64,000 nucleotides of DNA, from NCBI GenBank assembly GCA_021730945.1, contig JAKFYH010000028.1, forward strand, positions 65,472-129,471, written 5' to 3'. Below the pieces are notes generated by a model. That model saw only the letters and a program-made list of their open reading frames with translations, did no database searches and was not told where the DNA came from. The position numbers and the translations under genes were made by a program. The stretch comes from Acidobacteriota bacterium. GTDB lineage: Bacteria > Acidobacteriota > Vicinamibacteria > Vicinamibacterales > UBA2999. Positions 33,326 through 42,552 of the stretch are shown here, piece after piece (position 1 is the first letter of the stretch; each line of letters starts with the position of its first letter).

Positions 33326-35041
33326 GTGAAGTACATACCGAGCCAGGTCGCCTTCTTCTTCGCGGTGCGGGAGTCGCGGGCGAATGTGCGCAGCCTCCTG
33401 CAGTACGTCGCCTTCCTGGTCGCGCTGATCGCGGTGTACGCGGTGATGTTCCACGTCATCATGGAGCGGTTCGAAGGCCAGGCGCATTCGTGGATCACCG
33501 GCGTCTACTGGACGCTGGTCGTGATGTCGACCCTGGGCTTCGGCGACATTACGTTTACTTCCGACGCCGGCCGGCTCTTCAGCATTGTCGTGCTGGTGTC
33601 GGGTGTCGTGCTGCTCCTCGTGATGCTGCCGTTTCTGTTCATCAGCCTCTTCTATGCGCCCTGGCTCGAGGCGCGGGTCCGGCTGAGGGCGCCGCGCGAG
33701 CTGCCGGAAGGCACCCGGGACCACGTGCTGATCACCGGCTACGATTCAGTGGCCGACGGATTGATCGAGCGCCTGCGGGCCGGGGCCATTCCCTACACCG
33801 TCATCGAGCCCGATCCTGCCGCCGCCGCCCAGCTCGTGGCCGACGGCGTGTCGGCGGCCACCGGCGACATTGACCGGGCCGACACCTACCGCGCCATGCG
33901 GGCGGCCAGCGCGCGGATGCTGGTGGCCAACCGCGAGGACACCATCAACACCAACACCACGCTGACGGCGCGCGAAGTGCATCCGGGCCTGGTGATTGCC
34001 GCGATCGTCGAGCACGAGGCGTCGGTCGACGTCCTGCAATTGAGCGGCGCCACGCACGTACTGCCGCTCAAGGCGCAACTGGGCCAGTATCTCGCCAACC
34101 GCGTCGACATCGGGCGGGTCGAGGCGCATGTCGTCGGCAGCTACCGCGGCCTTCAGGTGGCCGAGCTCACGGCCCGGGGGACGTCGTTTGCCGGCAGCAC
34201 GGTGCGCGCCACCCGGCTGCGCGAGACCAGCGGCATGAGCGTGGTGGGCATCTGGAAGCGCGGCCGCCTGAATCCCGCGTACCCCGACACGCCGATCGAC
34301 GATGCCAGCGTCGTGGTGGTGGCGGGCACCGGCGATCAGATCGCGGCGCTCAACCAGACGCTGCCGCAGCGCGCCCTCCAGAACACGGGCGCCATTGTGG
34401 TGGTCGGGGCCGGCCGCGTCGGGCAGGCCGCGGTGGAAGCGCTCAAGGCCAAGGGCGTCCGCGCTCACGTGGTCGACCGCGACCGGCGAAGCCTGGCGCC
34501 GCTTGAGGGCGTGGCCGATCGGCTGATTGAAGGCGATGCCTCCGATCGCGAGGTGCTCGAACGGGCCGGACTGCACGAGGCGCCGTCGGTGCTGCTGACC
34601 ACCAATGACGATGCCATGAACATTTACCTGGCGGTCTACTGCCGGCGCCTGCAGCCCAACCTGCGCATCGTCAGCCGCATCACCCACGAGCGTAACGTGG
34701 AGGCCATTCACCGCGCGGGCGCCGACTTCGTGTTGAGTTACGCCTCGCTCGGCGCCGAGACGATCTTCTCGCTGCTGCGCTCGTACGAGCAAGTGATCCT
34801 CGGTGAAGGCGTGGACCTGTTCACGCGGCCGGTGCCAGCCCGGCTGATTGGCCGCACGCTGAAGGACGGCGCGATCGGGTCGTTGACCGGGCTCTGTGTC
34901 ATCGCCATCCAACAGGGCGACCGGATGGTGACCGAGATGCACTCCGACACGATTCTGCCGGAGGGCGCGGAGCTCGTGATGATTGGCAGCGTGGAGCAAC
35001 GACAGGCGTTTACCGACGCCTACGGGGCGCCACGGCGTTGA
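33326..35041 (+). CDS. Potassium channel with two RCK (TrkA-N/TrkA-C) units
   Basis: A 571-residue membrane protein. Two transmembrane helices (about 27-45 and 80-105) flank a pore loop with the selectivity filter STLGFGD (68-74), a variant of TVGYGD. Two RCK units follow: the first Rossmann domain begins at DHVLITGYDSVADGLIERLR; the second begins at GAIVVVGAGRVGQAAVEALK, with the acidic VDRDRRSL and GDASDREVL. TrkA-C segments lie at about 265-345 and 485-568 (PARLIGRTLKDGAI). It is a ligand-gated K+ channel resembling MthK/Kch. The GTG at 33326 gives the natural N terminus. Confidence 0.9.
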   Translation: MKYIPSQVAFFFAVRESRANVRSLLQYVAFLVALIAVYAVMFHVIMERFEGQAHSWITGVYWTLVVMSTLGFGDITFTSDAGRLFSIVVLVSGVVLLLVMLPFLFISLFYAPWLEARVRLRAPRELPEGTRDHVLITGYDSVADGLIERLRAGAIPYTVIEPDPAAAAQLVADGVSAATGDIDRADTYRAMRAASARMLVANREDTINTNTTLTAREVHPGLVIAAIVEHEASVDVLQLSGATHVLPLKAQLGQYLANRVDIGRVEAHVVGSYRGLQVAELTARGTSFAGSTVRATRLRETSGMSVVGIWKRGRLNPAYPDTPIDDASVVVVAGTGDQIAALNQTLPQRALQNTGAIVVVGAGRVGQAAVEALKAKGVRAHVVDRDRRSLAPLEGVADRLIEGDASDREVLERAGLHEAPSVLLTTNDDAMNIYLAVYCRRLQPNLRIVSRITHERNVEAIHRAGADFVLSYASLGAETIFSLLRSYEQVILGEGVDLFTRPVPARLIGRTLKDGAIGSLTGLCVIAIQQGDRMVTEMHSDTILPEGAELVMIGSVEQRQAFTDAYGAPRR

Positions 35042-35113
35042 TGAGGGATCGTCGACCCGTGCCGGCCGCTGCCTTCCACCTGGCCGCCTCGTCGAGGGCC
35101 GGTCACATCAAGT

Positions 35114-36757
35114 TCACGCAGGTGCGCCGGGCGCCGGCTCCCGCACGAGGTGCACGGTCCTGGTTGGGAAGGCAAAGCTCGATCCGGCTGCTTCCACCAC
35201 GCCCATGAAGCCGAGCAGCACCTCTTCGCGGCAGCCCTGAAAGTCGCCCCAGGTGGGCACGTCGAACCACGCCATGATCTCGATGTCGAGGGAGCTGGCG
35301 CCGAACGCCGCAAACTTGATCACCATGGCATCGGGCCAGATCTTCGGGTGGGCCCGTAGCACGCGCTCGAACCCGGTCAGGATCGTCCGCATCTGACTCT
35401 GAGTCGTACCGTAGGTCACCCCAATCATCGTCGCCAGCCGCATGCGATCGCGCGCTTGAAACGACTCCAGCCGCTGGTCGGCCAGCTTGCCGTTGGGAAT
35501 AGAGACGAGCGTGCGGTCGAGTGTGCGGAAGCGGGTCGAGCGCAGGCCGATGTCTTCGACAGTGCCGACGAAGTCTTCCACCTTCACGAAGTCGCCGATG
35601 CGAAAAGGCTGGTCGATGGCCAGCGACACGGAGCCAAAGACGTTCTCGACCGTCTTCTGCGCGCCAAACGCCACGGCCAGGCCGCCGATGCCGAGGCCGG
35701 CCAGCACGGTGCCCACCGGGTAGCCGAGCGACGCGATCATCGCCAGCACGCCGAGGCCGAGCACCAGCCCTTGCATGATCTTTGTGGCGATCGACAGCAT
35801 GTTGCGCACCGACGGGCTGTTGGCCGCCCACGGCTGGCTGGTGATCCATCCGGTCACCACCGGCACCAGGCGCCACAGTCCCCAAAAGACAGCGAAGGCC
35901 ATGGCGGGCCGCGTGAATAATTCCACCAGCGTGATGGCATCCTGCGTGATCTGGATCAGGCTGCAGCCGGCGGCGAACAGCACGATGCTGAACACCAGGG
36001 TGAGCGGCGGCCCGAGGCTGGCGAGCATCTGGTCGTCCCAGGTGGCACGGGTTCGTCGCGTGACGGCGCCGATTAGGGCGACGGTGAGATTGCGCAAGCC
36101 GCGGCCACCGGCCCAGGCGAGAAACGCGATGATCGGCAGCAGGAGCCAGTGCCACCACAGCACGCCGAAGAATCCCGGGCGCAGCAGCACATCGAAGCGG
36201 GTACCCGAGAACAGGTTGCGCACCCACCGGTCGGGCAGGTCGGCATACCAGCCGTCAATGCGTGTCACGGTATTGGGCGAGAACGCCCAGAACGTCCCGG
36301 CCTGGTCGGAGGTCCGGACCATCCGCATCGGTTCTTCACGGTTGCCCACCGGGACGGCCGCGACCGTTTCGAGTTCGGGCGGCAGTCCGTCGTCCAGTTG
36401 CCCTCGTGACCCTCCCGAGATGGTTTCGATGTCGATCAGGCGGCGGCTGTCGATCACGCCTTTGAGGCGTTCCGCCAGTTCGGGTGAGCGCGACCGCTGC
36501 TGGTCGGTCAACGACAGGTAGCGGGCGGCATCCTGCCATTGCCCGGCATTGGCGGCGTCGATGAACGCAAGCATCGACGAGCGCGGCGAATCGGCAGCGA
36601 CCGGCTCGGCCGGGGGCTCAGCCGGCGCGGGTGACGGCGGTTGCGACTCGGCGGGAGTGGCCGGCGATTGCGCCGCGAGTGTGGCCCCTGCGGAGATGAT
36701 CAGGAGCGCGGCCAGCGACGAGGCGAGCAACGATCGGCGTAGGGTGATGGCGGCCAT
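35114..36757 (-). CDS. MscS-family mechanosensitive channel
   Basis: A 547-residue membrane protein that releases osmolytes when tension rises. A signal peptide (MAAITLRRSLLASSLAALLI) and a periplasmic Pro/Ala/Glu-rich segment precede a domain of about 120 residues. About five transmembrane helices follow from 210 to 370. The pore helix is clear: GTVLAGLGIGGLAVAFGAQK, then TVENVFGSVSLAIDQPFRIG, and the beta domain FRTLDRTLVSIPNGKLADQR. The C-terminal alpha-beta domain ends at residue 547 with VREPAPGAPA. It is one of the larger MscS types (YnaI/YbiO-like). It stands alone on the minus strand, converging with the K+ channel gene. Confidence 0.9.
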   Translation of the reverse strand: MAAITLRRSLLASSLAALLIISAGATLAAQSPATPAESQPPSPAPAEPPAEPVAADSPRSSMLAFIDAANAGQWQDAARYLSLTDQQRSRSPELAERLKGVIDSRRLIDIETISGGSRGQLDDGLPPELETVAAVPVGNREEPMRMVRTSDQAGTFWAFSPNTVTRIDGWYADLPDRWVRNLFSGTRFDVLLRPGFFGVLWWHWLLLPIIAFLAWAGGRGLRNLTVALIGAVTRRTRATWDDQMLASLGPPLTLVFSIVLFAAGCSLIQITQDAITLVELFTRPAMAFAVFWGLWRLVPVVTGWITSQPWAANSPSVRNMLSIATKIMQGLVLGLGVLAMIASLGYPVGTVLAGLGIGGLAVAFGAQKTVENVFGSVSLAIDQPFRIGDFVKVEDFVGTVEDIGLRSTRFRTLDRTLVSIPNGKLADQRLESFQARDRMRLATMIGVTYGTTQSQMRTILTGFERVLRAHPKIWPDAMVIKFAAFGASSLDIEIMAWFDVPTWGDFQGCREEVLLGFMGVVEAAGSSFAFPTRTVHLVREPAPGAPA

Positions 36758-36839
36758 CCAGCCATTTCACATCAAGCGGCGGCGTCAGCCAAAGAACTTG
36801 TGCGTGCATCGATGAGCTGCCGCATTCCGCCCGGTGCGG

Positions 36840-36845
36840 TACAAT
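36840..36845 (+). promoter_or_regulatory. Candidate -10 element upstream of the HPF-like gene
   Basis: TACAAT (5/6 match to the -10 consensus) lies 71 bases before the ATG. No good -35 is present at 16-18 bases upstream. The 158-base gap before this gene otherwise shows nothing recognisable. Confidence 0.3.
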
Positions 36846-36916
36846 CGGGTAATCAGGAGATCTTGAGGCCACGCCCGACCGGCCTCCACGTGTACACGCC
36901 AGCCCCCAGGTAGCAA

Positions 36917-37417
36917 ATGAAGACTCAAGTTAACAGTGACAAGTCCATCAAGGTGTCCGCCGCCTTTATTCGTTTTATCGACACCGAGACCGACCGCGTG
37001 CTGGATCGATTTGCCGCCCAGTTGACGCGCGTGGAGGTCCACCTGAGCGACGTCAACAGCAAGAAGACGGGTGGGGCCGACAAGCAGTGCGTGGTGGAGG
37101 CGCGGCCGGCCGGCCTGCGGCCGGTCAGCGTGACGGCCACGGCTCCCACGGTCAACATGGCGTTCGCTCAGGCGCTGAACAAGATGCGGCGATCGCTCAC
37201 TTCGATCTTCGGCCGTCTGGGCCGCTCGTCGCGGCATGCCGACCCAGCCCGCACGACCGCGGCGAAGAAGCCGGTGAGCGCAAAGAAGAAGACCGCTGCG
37301 AAGAAGATTGCTGCGAAGAAGACCGCGGCAACGGCAGCGGCCGAGGCCGCTGACAGGGCCGGCGCCAGGAAGAAGGGCATCTACCAGGCGCGGCGCAAGG
37401 CCTGGCCGGTCCGCTAG
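36917..37417 (+). CDS. HPF/RaiA-like ribosome-associated protein with histone-H1-like basic tail
   Basis: A 166-residue protein. Residues 1-100 have the S30AE (ribosome hibernation) pattern: FIRFIDTETDRVLDRFAAQL, TRVEVHLSDVNSKKTGGADK, CVVEARPAGLRPVSVTATAP and NMAFAQALNKMRRSLTSIFG. Instead of the usual dimerisation domain of long HPF, residues 108-150 form a Lys/Ala repeat (AAKKPVSAKKKTAAKKIAAK), like histone H1 or Hc1 tails. It may bind ribosomes through the first part and RNA or DNA through the tail. The gene stands alone with its own weak promoter. S30AE membership is solid; the role of the tail is inference. Confidence 0.82.
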   Translation: MKTQVNSDKSIKVSAAFIRFIDTETDRVLDRFAAQLTRVEVHLSDVNSKKTGGADKQCVVEARPAGLRPVSVTATAPTVNMAFAQALNKMRRSLTSIFGRLGRSSRHADPARTTAAKKPVSAKKKTAAKKIAAKKTAATAAAEAADRAGARKKGIYQARRKAWPVR

Positions 37418-37447
37418 CCGGCCGGCCGGATCAGATCGCTTCTCCGT

Positions 37448-37476
37448 TTGACTTTCTAATGGAGTGAGGGCATCAT
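37448..37476 (+). promoter_or_regulatory. Promoter of PadR/ADOP module 2
   Basis: TTGACT (37448-37453) and CATCAT (37471-37476) are 17 bases apart. Transcription should begin near 37483-37485, which is the start codon itself, so the mRNA would be leaderless. Confidence 0.45.
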
Positions 37477-37483
37477 CCATTAG
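37456..37483. promoter_or_regulatory. PadR autoregulatory operator (inverted repeat)
   Basis: CTAATGGA (37456-37463) and TCCATTAG (37476-37483) are perfect 8-base reverse complements with a 12-base spacer. They lie between the -35 and the start codon and cover the -10 region. The repeat ends one base before the PadR ATG. PadR dimers bind spaced dyads of this kind to repress themselves. Confidence 0.65.
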
Positions 37484-37484
37484 G

Positions 37485-37832
37485 ATGCCTAATAAAGAAC
37501 CGTCCAAGGCCGAAGTGCTGCGCGGCACGCTCGATCTGATGGTGCTGCAGACCCTCGCCGCGCTCGGACCGCAACACGGCTACGCCATCGGCGCCCGCCT
37601 CGGGCAGGTCTCGTCGGGGGCGCTGACCCTGAACATGGGCACGCTGTACCCGGGGCTGATGCGGCTGGAGCAGCAGGGCCTGATTGACGCCGAGTGGGGC
37701 GTTACCGACAACAACCGCCAGGCGCGCTTCTATGCGATCACCGCCGCCGGACGCCGCCGGCTCGTGGCCGAGAAGAAGGCGTGGGACCAGATGGTCTCGG
37801 TCATGCACGCGCTGTTCGAGGATCCGTCGTGA
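37485..37832 (+). CDS. PadR-family transcriptional regulator (module 2)
   Basis: A 115-residue PadR-s1 winged-helix repressor: VLRGTLDLMVLQTLAALGPQ, HGYAIGARLGQVSSGALTLN, MGTLYPGLMRLEQQGLIDAE and ARFYAITAAGRRRLVAEKKA. The ATG at 37485 was preferred over the GTG at 37464, because the GTG lies inside the operator and upstream of the predicted transcription start. It overlaps the permease start by four bases (GTGA), as in module 1, and presumably represses it. The two PadR proteins are only moderately similar, so their signals probably differ. Confidence 0.92.
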   Translation: MPNKEPSKAEVLRGTLDLMVLQTLAALGPQHGYAIGARLGQVSSGALTLNMGTLYPGLMRLEQQGLIDAEWGVTDNNRQARFYAITAAGRRRLVAEKKAWDQMVSVMHALFEDPS

Positions 37833-40510
37833 CGCCCCCGGGGGCAGTGGCCACGATCCGGGAGTGGACCCGGCGGATGTGGGGCGCGCTCAGTGGCCGG
37901 CGGACCGACCAGGACCTGCAGCGCGAGATTGCCGGGCACCTCGCCTTCGCTGAAGACGAGCTCCGCCGGCAGGGCCATTCGCCGAACGAAGCCGCGCGAC
38001 TCGCGCGCGCCGCGGCCGGCGGCCGCGTCCAGGCTCTCGAGGCGCTGCGCGACCAGCGCGGCCTGCCCTGGCTCAGCTCGTCGTGGCTCGATATCAGGCT
38101 CGGGCTCCGCTTGCTCGTCCGCAGCTGGGGACTGACCCTCGCCGGCGGACTGGCGATGTCGGTGGCGATCAGCATCGCTGCCGTCGTGTTCGCGGCGTTT
38201 GACATGGTCATGTGGAGTCCGATGCCGCTCGATGAGGGCGATCGGATCGTGGCCATTCAGGTGTGGGACCGGGAGGCCGGCCGGCGGCGGGACACGCCCT
38301 GGGAGGACCTCGAGCGTTGGCGTGGCAGCCTGCAGTCGATCGATGAGGTCGGCGCGTACCAGGCGATTCGCCGCAACGTGATCACGGCCGACGGCTCAGT
38401 TGAATTTACGGCGGTGGCCGCGATGTCTGCCGCCGGATTTCGGGTCGCGCGGGTGCCGCCGCAGCTCGGCCGGCCGATCGCCGATGCCGATGCCGCGCCC
38501 GGCGCCGTGCCTGTCGTCGTCATCGGCCACGATGTCTGGCAGCGGCGTTTTGCCGGTGCGCGAGACGTGATCGGCCGTGAGCTTCGGCTGGGCGAGGCCA
38601 TGCACACCGTGGTCGGCGTCATGCCCGACGGCTTCCACTTCCCGTACAACTTCCGCTACTGGGTCCCGCTACAGCGCGCGGCCGGCGAGGTGTTGCACAA
38701 CGCCGGTCCCGAGGGAGTGGTGTTCGGCCGGCTCGCGCCGGATGCAACGCTTGCCCGCGCGGACGCGGAGGTGTCGGCGATCGGGATTCTGCCGTCCGTT
38801 CTCCCTGGCGCGAGGCGCGAAGCAGGGACCGGCGCGCGCGTGGTGCCGTACACGTTTGCCTTCACCGGCGACTTCGAACGCGGTGAGCTGGGTCTGCTTT
38901 GGACGCTCGCCAGCCTGGCCCTGGTCCTTCTGCTGCTGCCGCCGTGCGCGAACATCGCCATCCTGAACTACGCGCGCACAGTCACGCGACAGCAGGAGTT
39001 CGCCGCCCGCCACGCCCTCGGCGGCAGCCGCGCGCGGATCGTCTGGCAGTTGTTCGTCGAGGCGCTGGTGCTGACGGCCGCCTCCGCCGCTGTCGCGCTC
39101 GTGATCCTGCGCGTGGTCTCGATAGTCGTGTCCGGCCGTCTGCAGCAGCTCCCCGGTGGCCCGCCGTTCTGGATGTCATTCGACGTGTCGTACCGCACCC
39201 TTCTCTTCGTGGCCGGACTGGCCGTGGCAGGAGCGGCCGTGTCCGGCCTCGTGCCGGCGCTCCAGGCGACGGGCCGCCTGGCCCGGCTCGGCGCCGGCGC
39301 GCTCGCTCCACGAACCAGCCTCCGGCTCGGCGCTACGTGGACCACGCTGGTGATCGCACAGGTCGCCTTCTCAGTCGGCGTGTTGCCACTGGCCGTCGAA
39401 CTCGGCTGGGGCACACTGCGAAACGGCGTCGTTGGCCCAGGCTTCGCCGCCGAGGAGTTTGCGACCGCACGGGTCGCGCTGGAGCGCACCGATCTGTTTG
39501 GCATTCGCCAGCGCGAGTTGGCGCGACAGCTGCTGGCCGACCCGGCGGTGCGCGGCGTGGCCGCCGCCTTGCGACCACCTGGCGAGGAGCCCTGGGTGTT
39601 TGTTGACATTGAGGGCCGCGAGGCGCCGACCGAGGCGCTCAATGGCCAGTTGCCGGGCTTTCCCGCCCGGTTCAACCGGGTCGATGCCGCGTTCTTCGAG
39701 ATCTACCAGGTGCCGACGCTGCTCGGCCGCGGATTTGCCGCCGGCGACGCCGCGCCCGAGGCCGACGCGGTCCTGGTCAACCGGAACTTTGCGGAGACCA
39801 TTGCTCCCGGCGGCAACGCGCTCGGCCACCGTTTCCGGTACGCCCGCGCGATGAGCGGCGAGCTGCAGGGGCCGGAAGCGAATCGCTGGTACGAAGTGGC
39901 CGGCGTGGTCGGTAATCTGCCGGTGACGACCGACGCACGGGTGGCCTACCATGCGGCGGTCCCAGGTCAAATCCAGCCGGTGAACCTGCAACTTCGCCTC
40001 AGGGGCGACTCGGCTGGACTTGCCGAGCGCCTGCGCCACGTCGCTGCGCGCGTCGATCCCTTACTGCACGTCGATGAGGTCAGCACGCTGGCAGAGATCT
40101 ATCGCGAGCACCGCTTCGGCGACAACCTCGGCGCCATCACCATCGGCGCGGTCACCGGCAGCGTGCTCCTGCTTTCGGCGGCCGGCCTGTATGCGCTCAT
40201 GGCATTCACGGTCGCGCAGCGACGGCGTGAGATCGGCATCCGTTCGGCGCTGGGCGCTCAGCCCGGTCAGTTGGTGGCGGCTGTGTTCAGGCGCGCCTTC
40301 TGGCAGATCGGTGCCGGCTCGGCCGTAGGCATCCTGGCGGCCTACGCTGTCGGCCGCTACGTGCCGATTGAGCAGATCGGCGGCATGCCGATTCCCGGCA
40401 TCCTCCCGGGCGCAGCCGCGTTCATGCTGCTCGTTGGCGTGCTGGCGGCGCTTGGGCCCGCCCGGCGCGGGCTCCGTATCGATCCCACTGAAGCGCTGCG
40501 AAGCGAATAG
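37829..40510 (+). CDS. ADOP-type ABC transporter permease 2
   Basis: An 893-residue inner-membrane permease of the same architecture as that at 13496. An N-terminal cytoplasmic segment (GRRTDQDLQREIAGHLAFAE) precedes two MacB-core/FtsX blocks. The first FtsX block is around residues 350-470 (ARTVTRQQEFAARHALGGSR). The second ends with GSVLLLSAAGLYALMAFTVA, then QRRREIGIRSALGAQPGQLV and ARRGLRIDPTEALRSE. The first block is more diverged from the norm than in copy 1; for example the [13 protein letters not shown] motif is replaced by GLAMSVAISIAAVVFAAFDM. There is no adjacent ATPase. The GTG at 37829 was chosen because it overlaps the PadR stop. Confidence 0.88.
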   Translation: MTPPGAVATIREWTRRMWGALSGRRTDQDLQREIAGHLAFAEDELRRQGHSPNEAARLARAAAGGRVQALEALRDQRGLPWLSSSWLDIRLGLRLLVRSWGLTLAGGLAMSVAISIAAVVFAAFDMVMWSPMPLDEGDRIVAIQVWDREAGRRRDTPWEDLERWRGSLQSIDEVGAYQAIRRNVITADGSVEFTAVAAMSAAGFRVARVPPQLGRPIADADAAPGAVPVVVIGHDVWQRRFAGARDVIGRELRLGEAMHTVVGVMPDGFHFPYNFRYWVPLQRAAGEVLHNAGPEGVVFGRLAPDATLARADAEVSAIGILPSVLPGARREAGTGARVVPYTFAFTGDFERGELGLLWTLASLALVLLLLPPCANIAILNYARTVTRQQEFAARHALGGSRARIVWQLFVEALVLTAASAAVALVILRVVSIVVSGRLQQLPGGPPFWMSFDVSYRTLLFVAGLAVAGAAVSGLVPALQATGRLARLGAGALAPRTSLRLGATWTTLVIAQVAFSVGVLPLAVELGWGTLRNGVVGPGFAAEEFATARVALERTDLFGIRQRELARQLLADPAVRGVAAALRPPGEEPWVFVDIEGREAPTEALNGQLPGFPARFNRVDAAFFEIYQVPTLLGRGFAAGDAAPEADAVLVNRNFAETIAPGGNALGHRFRYARAMSGELQGPEANRWYEVAGVVGNLPVTTDARVAYHAAVPGQIQPVNLQLRLRGDSAGLAERLRHVAARVDPLLHVDEVSTLAEIYREHRFGDNLGAITIGAVTGSVLLLSAAGLYALMAFTVAQRRREIGIRSALGAQPGQLVAAVFRRAFWQIGAGSAVGILAAYAVGRYVPIEQIGGMPIPGILPGAAAFMLLVGVLAALGPARRGLRIDPTEALRSE

Positions 40511-40544
40511 GGAGCCGCAGAAGACCTGGCGCCCAGGCGGCAGG

Positions 40545-40566
40545 TGAGGCATATAATCCCGCCTCA
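40545..40566. promoter_or_regulatory. Perfect -10 box flanked by an inverted repeat, multicopper oxidase promoter
   Basis: TATAAT (40552-40557) lies inside TGAGGC-atataatccc-GCCTCA, a perfect 6-base inverted repeat with a 10-base spacer. The ATG follows three bases after the repeat, so the leader would be only about six bases. No good -35 is visible, which fits an activated or operator-controlled promoter. Confidence 0.5.
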
Positions 40567-40569
40567 ATC

Positions 40570-42552
40570 ATGACCTTCAGCCGCACGGCTCGTTTCGCGC
40601 CGGCCGCCATCGCCATCGCACTGATTCTCACCGTCGTCGAGGGTCGGAGCGATGTGCAATCCCAGGTCGATCGGGTCGTCTCCAATCCGCCGGTGCTCAA
40701 CGGTGCCGGACGGGCGATGGCGCCGGTGCTGCTTGGTCGCAGCCCCGTGACCCCACAGTCGACCGAAGCGGCGTTCGATCTGAACGTGGCGTATACCTAC
40801 GCCCGGATCTGGAACCCCGCCACCGACCGCTACGATCGCGTCAACCTGCGCAGCTACCAGGGCACGCAGGTCAATCCGCAGGCGCCATTCGTCTCGCCGA
40901 CGATCGAAGTGACGCCCGGCGACACCATTCGCCTGACGCTCAACAATCGCCTGCCGCCGGATCCAAGCTGCACGCACGCTCACGACGCGAACACGCCGCA
41001 CTGCTTCAACGGCACCAACCTGCACACCCACGGGCTGTGGACCAATCCCGGCGGCAACGGCGACAACGTGCTGATCTCCGTCAATCCCGGTGTCAGCTTT
41101 CAGTACGAGTACAACATCCCGCCGGATCACCCCGCGGGAACGTTCTGGTATCACACGCACCGGCACGGATCGACGGCGCTGCAGGTCTCGAGCGGGATGG
41201 CCGGCGCCCTGATCGTGCGCGGCAACCGGTTGCCGACCAGCCGCGGCGGTGGTGACCTCGACACGCTGTTCCGGCCGACCGCCGTGCAGCCGTTCACCGA
41301 GCGAATTGTCGTGATGCAGCAGATTAACTACGCCTGTCGAGACGCGTCCGGCGCCATTCAGGTCGATGCCGCGAACAACTACCGTTGCGATCCGGGTGAT
41401 ATCGGCTCGGTGGAGAATTACGATCAACTGGCCTTTGGCCAGTGGCCGGGGTCAGGTCACTACACCAGCATCAACGGACACGTCCTGCCGACCTTTACCG
41501 GCGCGAGGGCGGGCCTGCTCGAACGCTGGCGGATGATTCACGCCGGTGTCGCCGACACCATCAACCTCGAGTTCCGCGCCATGACGCAGACTGCCGGCGT
41601 CTCCGGCCTGCGCGCCTCCGAGAACGCCCGCTTCATCGGTGATAACTGCGGCGGGCCGGCGCTGCCGCAACGTCTCGTCGCCGCCGACGGCCTGACGATG
41701 GGCGCGATCAACACGACCGGCCAGACGGTGTTTCAGCCTGGTTATCGATGGGATGTGCTCATGCTGTTCCCGCAGCCGGGCACCTACTGCGTGATCGACG
41801 CCGCGGCGCCGGCGCCAGGGGTTGGGCGAACCGCGCCGTCGCAGCAGCTGCTCGGCTTCGTGACGGTGGCGCCTGGCGAGAATGTGCCGCAGAACACCGC
41901 GCAGTTCGTGCTGGATGCCCTGGCGGAAGCCGCCTATCAAAACATGCCTGACGCCGTGAGGCGCGGGGTGATCGCCGACTTGAACGCCGGCTTGAAGCTG
42001 ACCTCGTTCGTCCCGCACGAAGACATCGCACCGAACGAAGTCACGGGAACCCAGTCGCTCACGTTCAATATTGTGACCACCGGCACGTCCGATTCGTTCC
42101 AGGTCGACGGCCGGTCCTACGACCCAGCTCGGCTCGATCGGGTCCTGACCCTCGGGGCGGTGGATGAGTGGACGCTCAAGTCCGCGATCTTCGCGCATCC
42201 TTTCCACATCCACGTCAATCCGTTCCAGATCATCCGGATTCTCGATCCGACCGGCAAGGACGTGAGTGCGCCCGATGCGGCCGACAGTTTCGGCACGACC
42301 GGCGCGCCGGATTCACAGTTCCGGGGAATGAGGGGCGTGTGGAAGGACACGTTGTGGATCAAGAACGCGGCGGCTGGCACCACAGCGGACGAACTGAAGG
42401 CCGGGATGTATACCGCGATCGTGCGGACGCGCTATCGGCGTTACATCGGCGACTTCGTGCTCCACTGCCACATCCTCACGCACGAGGATCAGGGCATGAT
42501 GCAAAACGTCCGGATCGCGTTGCCCGGCGCCGGGGGCGCGCGCCAGCAGTAA
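40570..42552 (+). CDS. Exported multicopper oxidase
   Basis: A 660-residue periplasmic laccase-like oxidase with a signal peptide (residues 1-25). All four copper-ligand clusters are intact: HTHG in GTNLHTHGLW, HTHRHG in TFWYHTHRHGST, HPFHIHVNPF, and the C-terminal HCHILTHEDQGMM with the type 1 Cys, His and axial Met. The domains are cupredoxin 1 (about 95-220), 2 (about 235-420) and 3 (about 500-655). Possible roles are copper oxidation, phenol oxidation or metal detoxification; the sequence does not decide. It follows ADOP module 2 but has its own promoter. Confidence 0.93.
   Translation: MTFSRTARFAPAAIAIALILTVVEGRSDVQSQVDRVVSNPPVLNGAGRAMAPVLLGRSPVTPQSTEAAFDLNVAYTYARIWNPATDRYDRVNLRSYQGTQVNPQAPFVSPTIEVTPGDTIRLTLNNRLPPDPSCTHAHDANTPHCFNGTNLHTHGLWTNPGGNGDNVLISVNPGVSFQYEYNIPPDHPAGTFWYHTHRHGSTALQVSSGMAGALIVRGNRLPTSRGGGDLDTLFRPTAVQPFTERIVVMQQINYACRDASGAIQVDAANNYRCDPGDIGSVENYDQLAFGQWPGSGHYTSINGHVLPTFTGARAGLLERWRMIHAGVADTINLEFRAMTQTAGVSGLRASENARFIGDNCGGPALPQRLVAADGLTMGAINTTGQTVFQPGYRWDVLMLFPQPGTYCVIDAAAPAPGVGRTAPSQQLLGFVTVAPGENVPQNTAQFVLDALAEAAYQNMPDAVRRGVIADLNAGLKLTSFVPHEDIAPNEVTGTQSLTFNIVTTGTSDSFQVDGRSYDPARLDRVLTLGAVDEWTLKSAIFAHPFHIHVNPFQIIRILDPTGKDVSAPDAADSFGTTGAPDSQFRGMRGVWKDTLWIKNAAAGTTADELKAGMYTAIVRTRYRRYIGDFVLHCHILTHEDQGMMQNVRIALPGAGGARQQ

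Follow-up and report, generated by a model that had tools for sequence, protein, structure and literature searches.

Hibernation factors differ mainly in the C-terminal part that follows the S30AE core, and it is this part which decides between storage of 70S ribosomes and formation of 100S dimers. The hpf protein of A. baumannii was observed on the 70S ribosome, where it overlaps the eravacycline site of the 30S subunit, and no 100S particles were seen in that work (PMC8263017). The tail of E. coli YfiA is reported to inhibit the binding of RMF (PMC7764885). The gene analysed here lies in a 64,000-nucleotide stretch of an Acidobacteriota genome (the window) and joins an S30AE domain to a long Lys/Ala-rich basic tail with a conserved end (Table 1). 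While the S30AE family is known, the tailed form looks undescribed: no account of a Lys/Ala tail on an S30AE protein was found in the literature searched, outside which most subscription journals fall.

Table 1. The S30AE-tail gene, its parts and its surroundings (positions of the window)
Feature	Position	Strand	Basis or remark
S30AE-tail gene	36917..37417	+	166 aa; ORF, frame, start and length as in the earlier note
S30AE (HPF/RaiA-type) domain, residues 1-100	36917..37216	+	PF02482, 7m4z_v, AlphaFold, VIA-align
Lys/Ala-rich linker, residues 101-148	37217..37360	+	composition; alignment with tailed relatives
Conserved C-terminal motif, residues 149-166, GARKKGIYQARRKAWPVR	37361..37414	+	invariant columns, recurrence, dN/dS
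Stop codon, S30AE-tail gene	37415..37417	+	
MscS-type mechanosensitive channel gene, divergent	35114..36757	-	PF00924 2.1e-19; context only
PadR-type regulator gene, downstream	37464..37832	+	PF03551 2.6e-19; context only
MacB/FtsX-type permease frame, after PadR gene			PF12704 and PF02687 matches; context only

The S30AE domain

An earlier note on this DNA had claimed that the first 100 residues fit the S30AE fold, and three sources agree with it: PF02482 was matched by Pfam at residues 8-96 above its cut-off (E 3.3e-7, 31.4 bits against 23.7), residues 2-100 were matched by phmmer to PDB chain 7m4z_v (8.5e-15), and the predicted fold is of the same type. The whole protein was modelled by AlphaFold with 45 aligned rows. 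Block pLDDT of the S30AE part is mostly 96-98, the lowest value being 85 in one loop, and the order of strands and helices in the model (E H E E E H) is that of the beta-alpha-beta-beta-beta-alpha fold of S30AE. The best solved match found by VIA-align is again 7m4z_v, which superposes on 102 residues with an rmsd of 1.1 Å (Z 18.2, 33% identity; TM 0.94 when normalised by target length), so the N-terminal part does model as S30AE, and the next structural matches are hibernation factors of E. coli, P. urativorans and V. cholerae with Z of 15-16. The match to the NCBIfam equivalog model yfiA (TIGR00741) scores 17.9 bits where the cut-off is 40.9, so the protein is a divergent short form of S30AE. 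It is a member of a short, widespread S30AE subfamily. Three of six plasmid records with relatives (tblastn) are annotated as 'HPF/RaiA family ribosome-associated protein', the other three being without a feature at that place. The dimerisation domain of long HPF, PF16321, is absent from the protein (Pfam, E<=1).

No sigma-70-like site was found 5' of the gene in a promoter scan of positions 36700-37600. One such site (9/12) is situated at 37448-37476, between the S30AE-tail gene and the PadR gene, and because of it the PadR/permease pair may possess its own promoter. Rfam gave no match over positions 35000-40600.

The basic tail and its conserved end

The tail comprises residues 101-166, that is 66 residues rich in Lys, Ala and Arg with a net charge of +17. 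The Lys/Ala repeat which the earlier note had placed at residues 108-150 is indeed present (43 residues with 9 Lys and 18 Ala); what had been overlooked is that the basic tail extends to residue 166 and carries a conserved motif at its end. Among 328 open frames of at least 100 codons, in all six frames, the richest 43-residue Lys/Ala stretch of the window belongs to this gene (11 Lys and 17 Ala), the next-richest frame having 6 Lys and 9 Ala in 43. G+C at the three codon positions is 0.61, 0.65 and 0.86 in the tail and 0.58, 0.46 and 0.83 in the S30AE part, and a third-position value as high as that of the S30AE part fits a translated frame. The full model predicts, with moderate confidence, a helix at residues 131-161, and a model of the isolated tail, built from three rows, has a single helix at its residues 29-67 (block pLDDT up to 81, pTM 0.26). 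According to these low-confidence structures the tail may be a flexible basic segment, possibly helical on binding.

The proposed likeness to the tails of H1 and Hc1 holds for the Lys/Ala composition and does not extend to a family match, as Pfam at E<=1 gave none of the linker-histone, Hc1 and AlgP families. Homology with H1/Hc1 was rejected, since besides S30AE no Pfam family exceeded its cut-off and the search to E<=1 gave a weak Nup49_C match below it. An NCBIfam match to PRTRC_E at residues 61-126 (25.1 against 37.95 bits) is also below cut-off, extends into the low-complexity tail and was discarded. The composition is nevertheless what speaks for the earlier idea of a tether, in which the protein would grip an idle ribosome with its S30AE domain and chromosomal DNA with its H1-like tail, keeping ribosomes at the nucleoid or compacting the DNA in stationary phase. 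There is a precedent in AlgP of Pseudomonas, a DNA-binding protein with an H1-like KPAA tail, about which its authors speculate that it tethers polyphosphate granules to the chromosome (PMC9239181). We consider such a DNA tether unlikely because the tail is short compared with the 154 residues in AlgP, it is fused to a domain of rRNA-binding type, no DNA-binding family was matched (Pfam, E<=1), and unspecific binding of DNA would leave the conserved end motif unexplained. The presence of AlgP at polyphosphate granules (PMC9239181) could also be taken as a model for a polycation tail that would draw hibernating ribosomes together in condensates of polyphosphate or rich in RNA. This is very unlikely, as neither the sequence nor the neighbourhood contains a hint of polyphosphate and the motif would again be without explanation.

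Four C-termini were aligned, RGPKKKLIFQARRKSQP of L046, RGPKKKQIYQQRRKAQP of L053, RGPKKKGIYQARRKSWP of L047 and AGARKKGIYQARRKAWP of the window protein, and 9 of their 28 columns are invariant; the motif consensus is about G-[P/A]-[K/R]-K-K-x-I-[Y/F]-Q-x-R-R-K-x-x-P. From the alignment, the tail is a variable Lys/Ala linker followed by a conserved C-terminal motif. The motif is present in six of the eight distinct tailed proteins (window, L046, L047, L053, L127, which equals L128, and L129), while it is divergent in L158 and absent in L162, which indicates that a basic tail can exist without it. Among the 171 loci scanned it is confined to tailed S30AE genes. A DNA pattern of the motif was found in 3 of 396 genomes of the phylum, each time at a tailed S30AE gene and with 0 control matches, and this pattern is not exhaustive since it misses the tailed genomes G147 and G211, which read RRR. 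In viral contigs none of the 7 stretches with the motif pattern encodes a relative, and relatives from plasmids and phages match at most 66% of the query, none of them reaching the end of the tail.

Comparison of three Edaphobacter proteins gave a dN/dS of 0.04-0.07 in the motif, of 0.41-0.61 in the linker and of 0.13-0.57 in the S30AE part, values which come from three close sequences with 26 C-terminal codons and hence from few sites. Among these three proteins purifying selection is stronger on the motif than on the linker. A reading of the motif as an AT-hook was rejected, since the core of an AT-hook is RGRP and both RGPKKK of the relatives and AGARKK of the window protein are unlike it. 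The best matches of the motif among solved structures, a cysteine desulfurase (E 0.19) and mL41 (E 2.4), were taken as chance.

Distribution and descent of the tailed form

A profile scan of public genomes (84,980 species) gave at least 593 stretches with at least 575 relatives, the best 80 of which were examined. In these best 80 of at least 575, 77 are tail-less, and the frame continues after residue 100 for a median of 19 residues with a median net charge of 0; the tailed ones are L046 (Edaphobacter lichenicola, 182 aa), L053 (Terriglobia MAG, 172 aa) and L047 (Acidobacteria MAG). The tail and the S30AE part of L047 are in different frames (L047:5001-5469) near a C run, so either the frameshift of this gene is real or the sequence is in error there. 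A profile made from the window protein, L046 and L053 matched 23 of 396 genomes of the phylum at E<=1e-8, and in five of these, the window's included, the match reaches profile position 168 or 171. At E<=1e-20, 26 of 399 genomes from the class of G371 were matched, which adds the basic-tailed L158 and L162. In the window's own class 8 of 193 genomes were matched and only the window's genome reaches the profile end; of the other seven, the six that were read (G005, G025, G301, G840, G850 and G893) are tail-less, the seventh being G790 with two matches. Among other relatives read separately, L133 excluded, a basic tail was seen in L162 only and the motif in none; L133, L175 and L180, matched to profile positions 103, 120 and 108 respectively, are outside the tail count. 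Basic tails are thus present in seven distinct relatives, all of them Acidobacteriota, five of which keep the motif. The net charge of the tail, counted for seven tailed proteins, ranges from +15 to +21. Among the relatives listed the tailed form occurs only in some Acidobacteriota, and forms outside the phylum may be missed.

The nearest relatives in the window's genus and family, the genus mate L004 and the family mate L003, are tail-less as well. The earlier note had held that homologues without the tail would speak against its reading, and this is how the 77 proteins mentioned above, L003 and L004 look, but not a supported sub-clade in which the end motif is conserved; the tail is therefore not a one-off. 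When the tree was built from the S30AE part alone (62 rows, 108 columns), seven of the eight tailed proteins fell, together with the shortened relative L056, into one group of 8 rows with support 99/97, and L053 is placed outside it on a long branch. A single clade of all eight tailed proteins was not rejected (p-AU 0.10), p being 0.45 with L056 added, and a single origin of the tail with one loss is possible on this tree. Where kinship is given, the window's genome and the tailed relatives share the phylum only and belong to different classes. As the tailed relatives are found in another class, and the tail-less S30AE proteins L004 and L003 are distant from the window's on the tree, transfer of the tailed gene between classes can fairly be inferred. 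With 0.655 the G+C of the gene differs little from the 0.677 of the window, so any such transfer would be old.

The prevalence of tail-less forms among the best 80 relatives, together with a linker that is variable and weakly constrained by its dN/dS, would be expected if the tail were a near-neutral low-complexity extension. This is highly improbable, since conservation of the end motif reaches across classes of the phylum, the motif is under purifying selection, and the charge is maintained within the range given above.

No conserved neighbourhood was found among L046, L047 and L053. Their neighbours are Bax1-I and a metallophosphoesterase in L046, Usp, BON and a second S30AE gene in L047, and NIPSNAP in L053, and because these neighbourhoods differ no operon partner is proposed. 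At L047:2609-6518 the tailed gene has a universal-stress-protein gene, a BON-domain gene and another short S30AE gene close by, and the region looks like a stress island.

Proposed role and comparison with known hibernation factors

The window's genome, in 67 contigs, has a completeness rating of 100%. Its one match to PF02482 at E<=1 is the S30AE-tail gene itself. PF16321 has 0 matches in the whole genome at E<=1, so the protein and the genome are both without the long-HPF dimerisation domain, in line with the earlier note, and no RMF is over the cut-off, with three weak matches below it. An S30AE match at E<=0.01 was found in 3 (G000, G001 and G005) of the 9 genomes of the genus, the window's included, compared with 47 of the 60 genomes searched in all; the remaining six of the nine (G000-G008) have none at this threshold, and the usual long HPF may have been lost in the genus. 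The stronger match of G001 is a different kind of S30AE protein without such a tail. A separate fusion was noticed in a genome of the window's order, where L006:880-1800 (+) encodes a CBS-domain pair (2.4e-23) joined to a weak S30AE match (20.3 bits against a cut-off of 23.7).

A genome without PF16321 and without RMF over the cut-off, and a protein laid out as S30AE domain, flexible linker and small conserved C-terminal element, could point to substitute dimerisation, in which linker and end motif would replace the linker and C-terminal domain of long HPF and connect one 70S ribosome with another, either through self-association or through rRNA of the neighbour. We find this quite unlikely: the motif has about 18 residues and is very basic, the models give a helix only and no small domain, and the closest solved homologue, though tail-less itself, gave 70S and no 100S particles (PMC8263017). 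It is a tentative and somewhat doubtful proposal that linker and end motif could form a new C-terminal module which ties the idle 70S to a second nucleic-acid partner, ribosome or chromosome, and replaces the long-HPF dimerisation domain where neither long HPF nor RMF is found.

The reading we prefer, to which we give about an even chance, is that the protein is a short hibernation factor which renders 70S ribosomes inactive and that its tail acts as a second, electrostatic nucleic-acid anchor, most likely to rRNA. By analogy with the closest solved homologue, the 70S-bound hpf of A. baumannii (7M4Z), the S30AE domain would most likely sit in the A/P-site cleft of 30S in an idle 70S ribosome, where tRNA and mRNA would be blocked. 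The tail is long enough to exit the cleft and would use its charge to hold the factor on nucleic acid, most likely on rRNA of the same ribosome and possibly on that of a neighbour, while the end motif would make a specific contact. Nucleic-acid binding by a tail of +17 is plausible from its charge, and we rank rRNA first among its ligands since it is nearest to a ribosome-bound protein, followed by DNA, the neighbouring ribosome and polyphosphate. The reading draws on the domain and its fold, the 70S-bound homologue, the single S30AE match in the genome without recognisable long HPF or RMF, the charge of the tail, the invariant and constrained motif and the supported sub-clade, whereas ribosome binding, the tail's contact with nucleic acid and the target of that contact are deduced from these. 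If the tail does reach DNA, stored ribosomes would be linked physically and directly to the nucleoid. Several observations count against the rRNA-anchor reading. Four tailed genomes of the Edaphobacter group (G371, G147, G211 and G204) also carry a tail-less paralogue (L148-L151), which indicates that the tail is unnecessary for hibernation as such, and identity of the window's motif with those of relatives (7/15 to 12/18) is not consistently above that of the S30AE domain (47-61%). The divergent motif of L158 and its absence in L162, the few sites behind the dN/dS values and the low confidence of the tail structure weigh on the same side.

Chlamydial Hc1 is a bacterial H1-like protein. Both AlgP and Hc1 possess a Lys/Ala-rich low-complexity tail that is like the window's in composition, with no family-level match, and the window's tail differs in being fused to a domain of ribosome-binding type and in ending with a specific motif. 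Mosquito ribosomal protein S6 has a histone H1-like C-terminal extension, which its authors regard as convergent (PMC548281); it is, like the window protein, a translation-apparatus protein with an H1-like tail, but it is eukaryotic and from another family. By analogy, AlgP and mosquito S6 may be taken as precedents for H1-like tails on a granule-/DNA-binding protein and on a ribosomal protein, respectively, while they are silent on the role of the tail in the window. E. coli YfiA (RaiA) is also a short S30AE protein with a C-terminal tail, but its structure (1n3g) has 12% identity to the window protein, whose tail is of 66 residues and +17 and whose genome is without RMF over the cut-off. The short HPF/RaiA-family protein of A. 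baumannii (7M4Z chain v) belongs to the same S30AE subfamily, and its 116 residues contain neither a Lys/Ala tail nor the end motif, both of which the window protein has. With long HPF of S. aureus, B. subtilis and T. thermophilus the window protein has in common the S30AE core fold and the layout of core, linker and C-terminal element; in long HPF this element is the dimerising PF16321, whereas here it is a short basic motif. A conserved basic motif carried on a Lys/Ala linker, in a genome with no recognisable long HPF or RMF, offers a compact test for a third kind of C-terminal anchor in ribosome storage.
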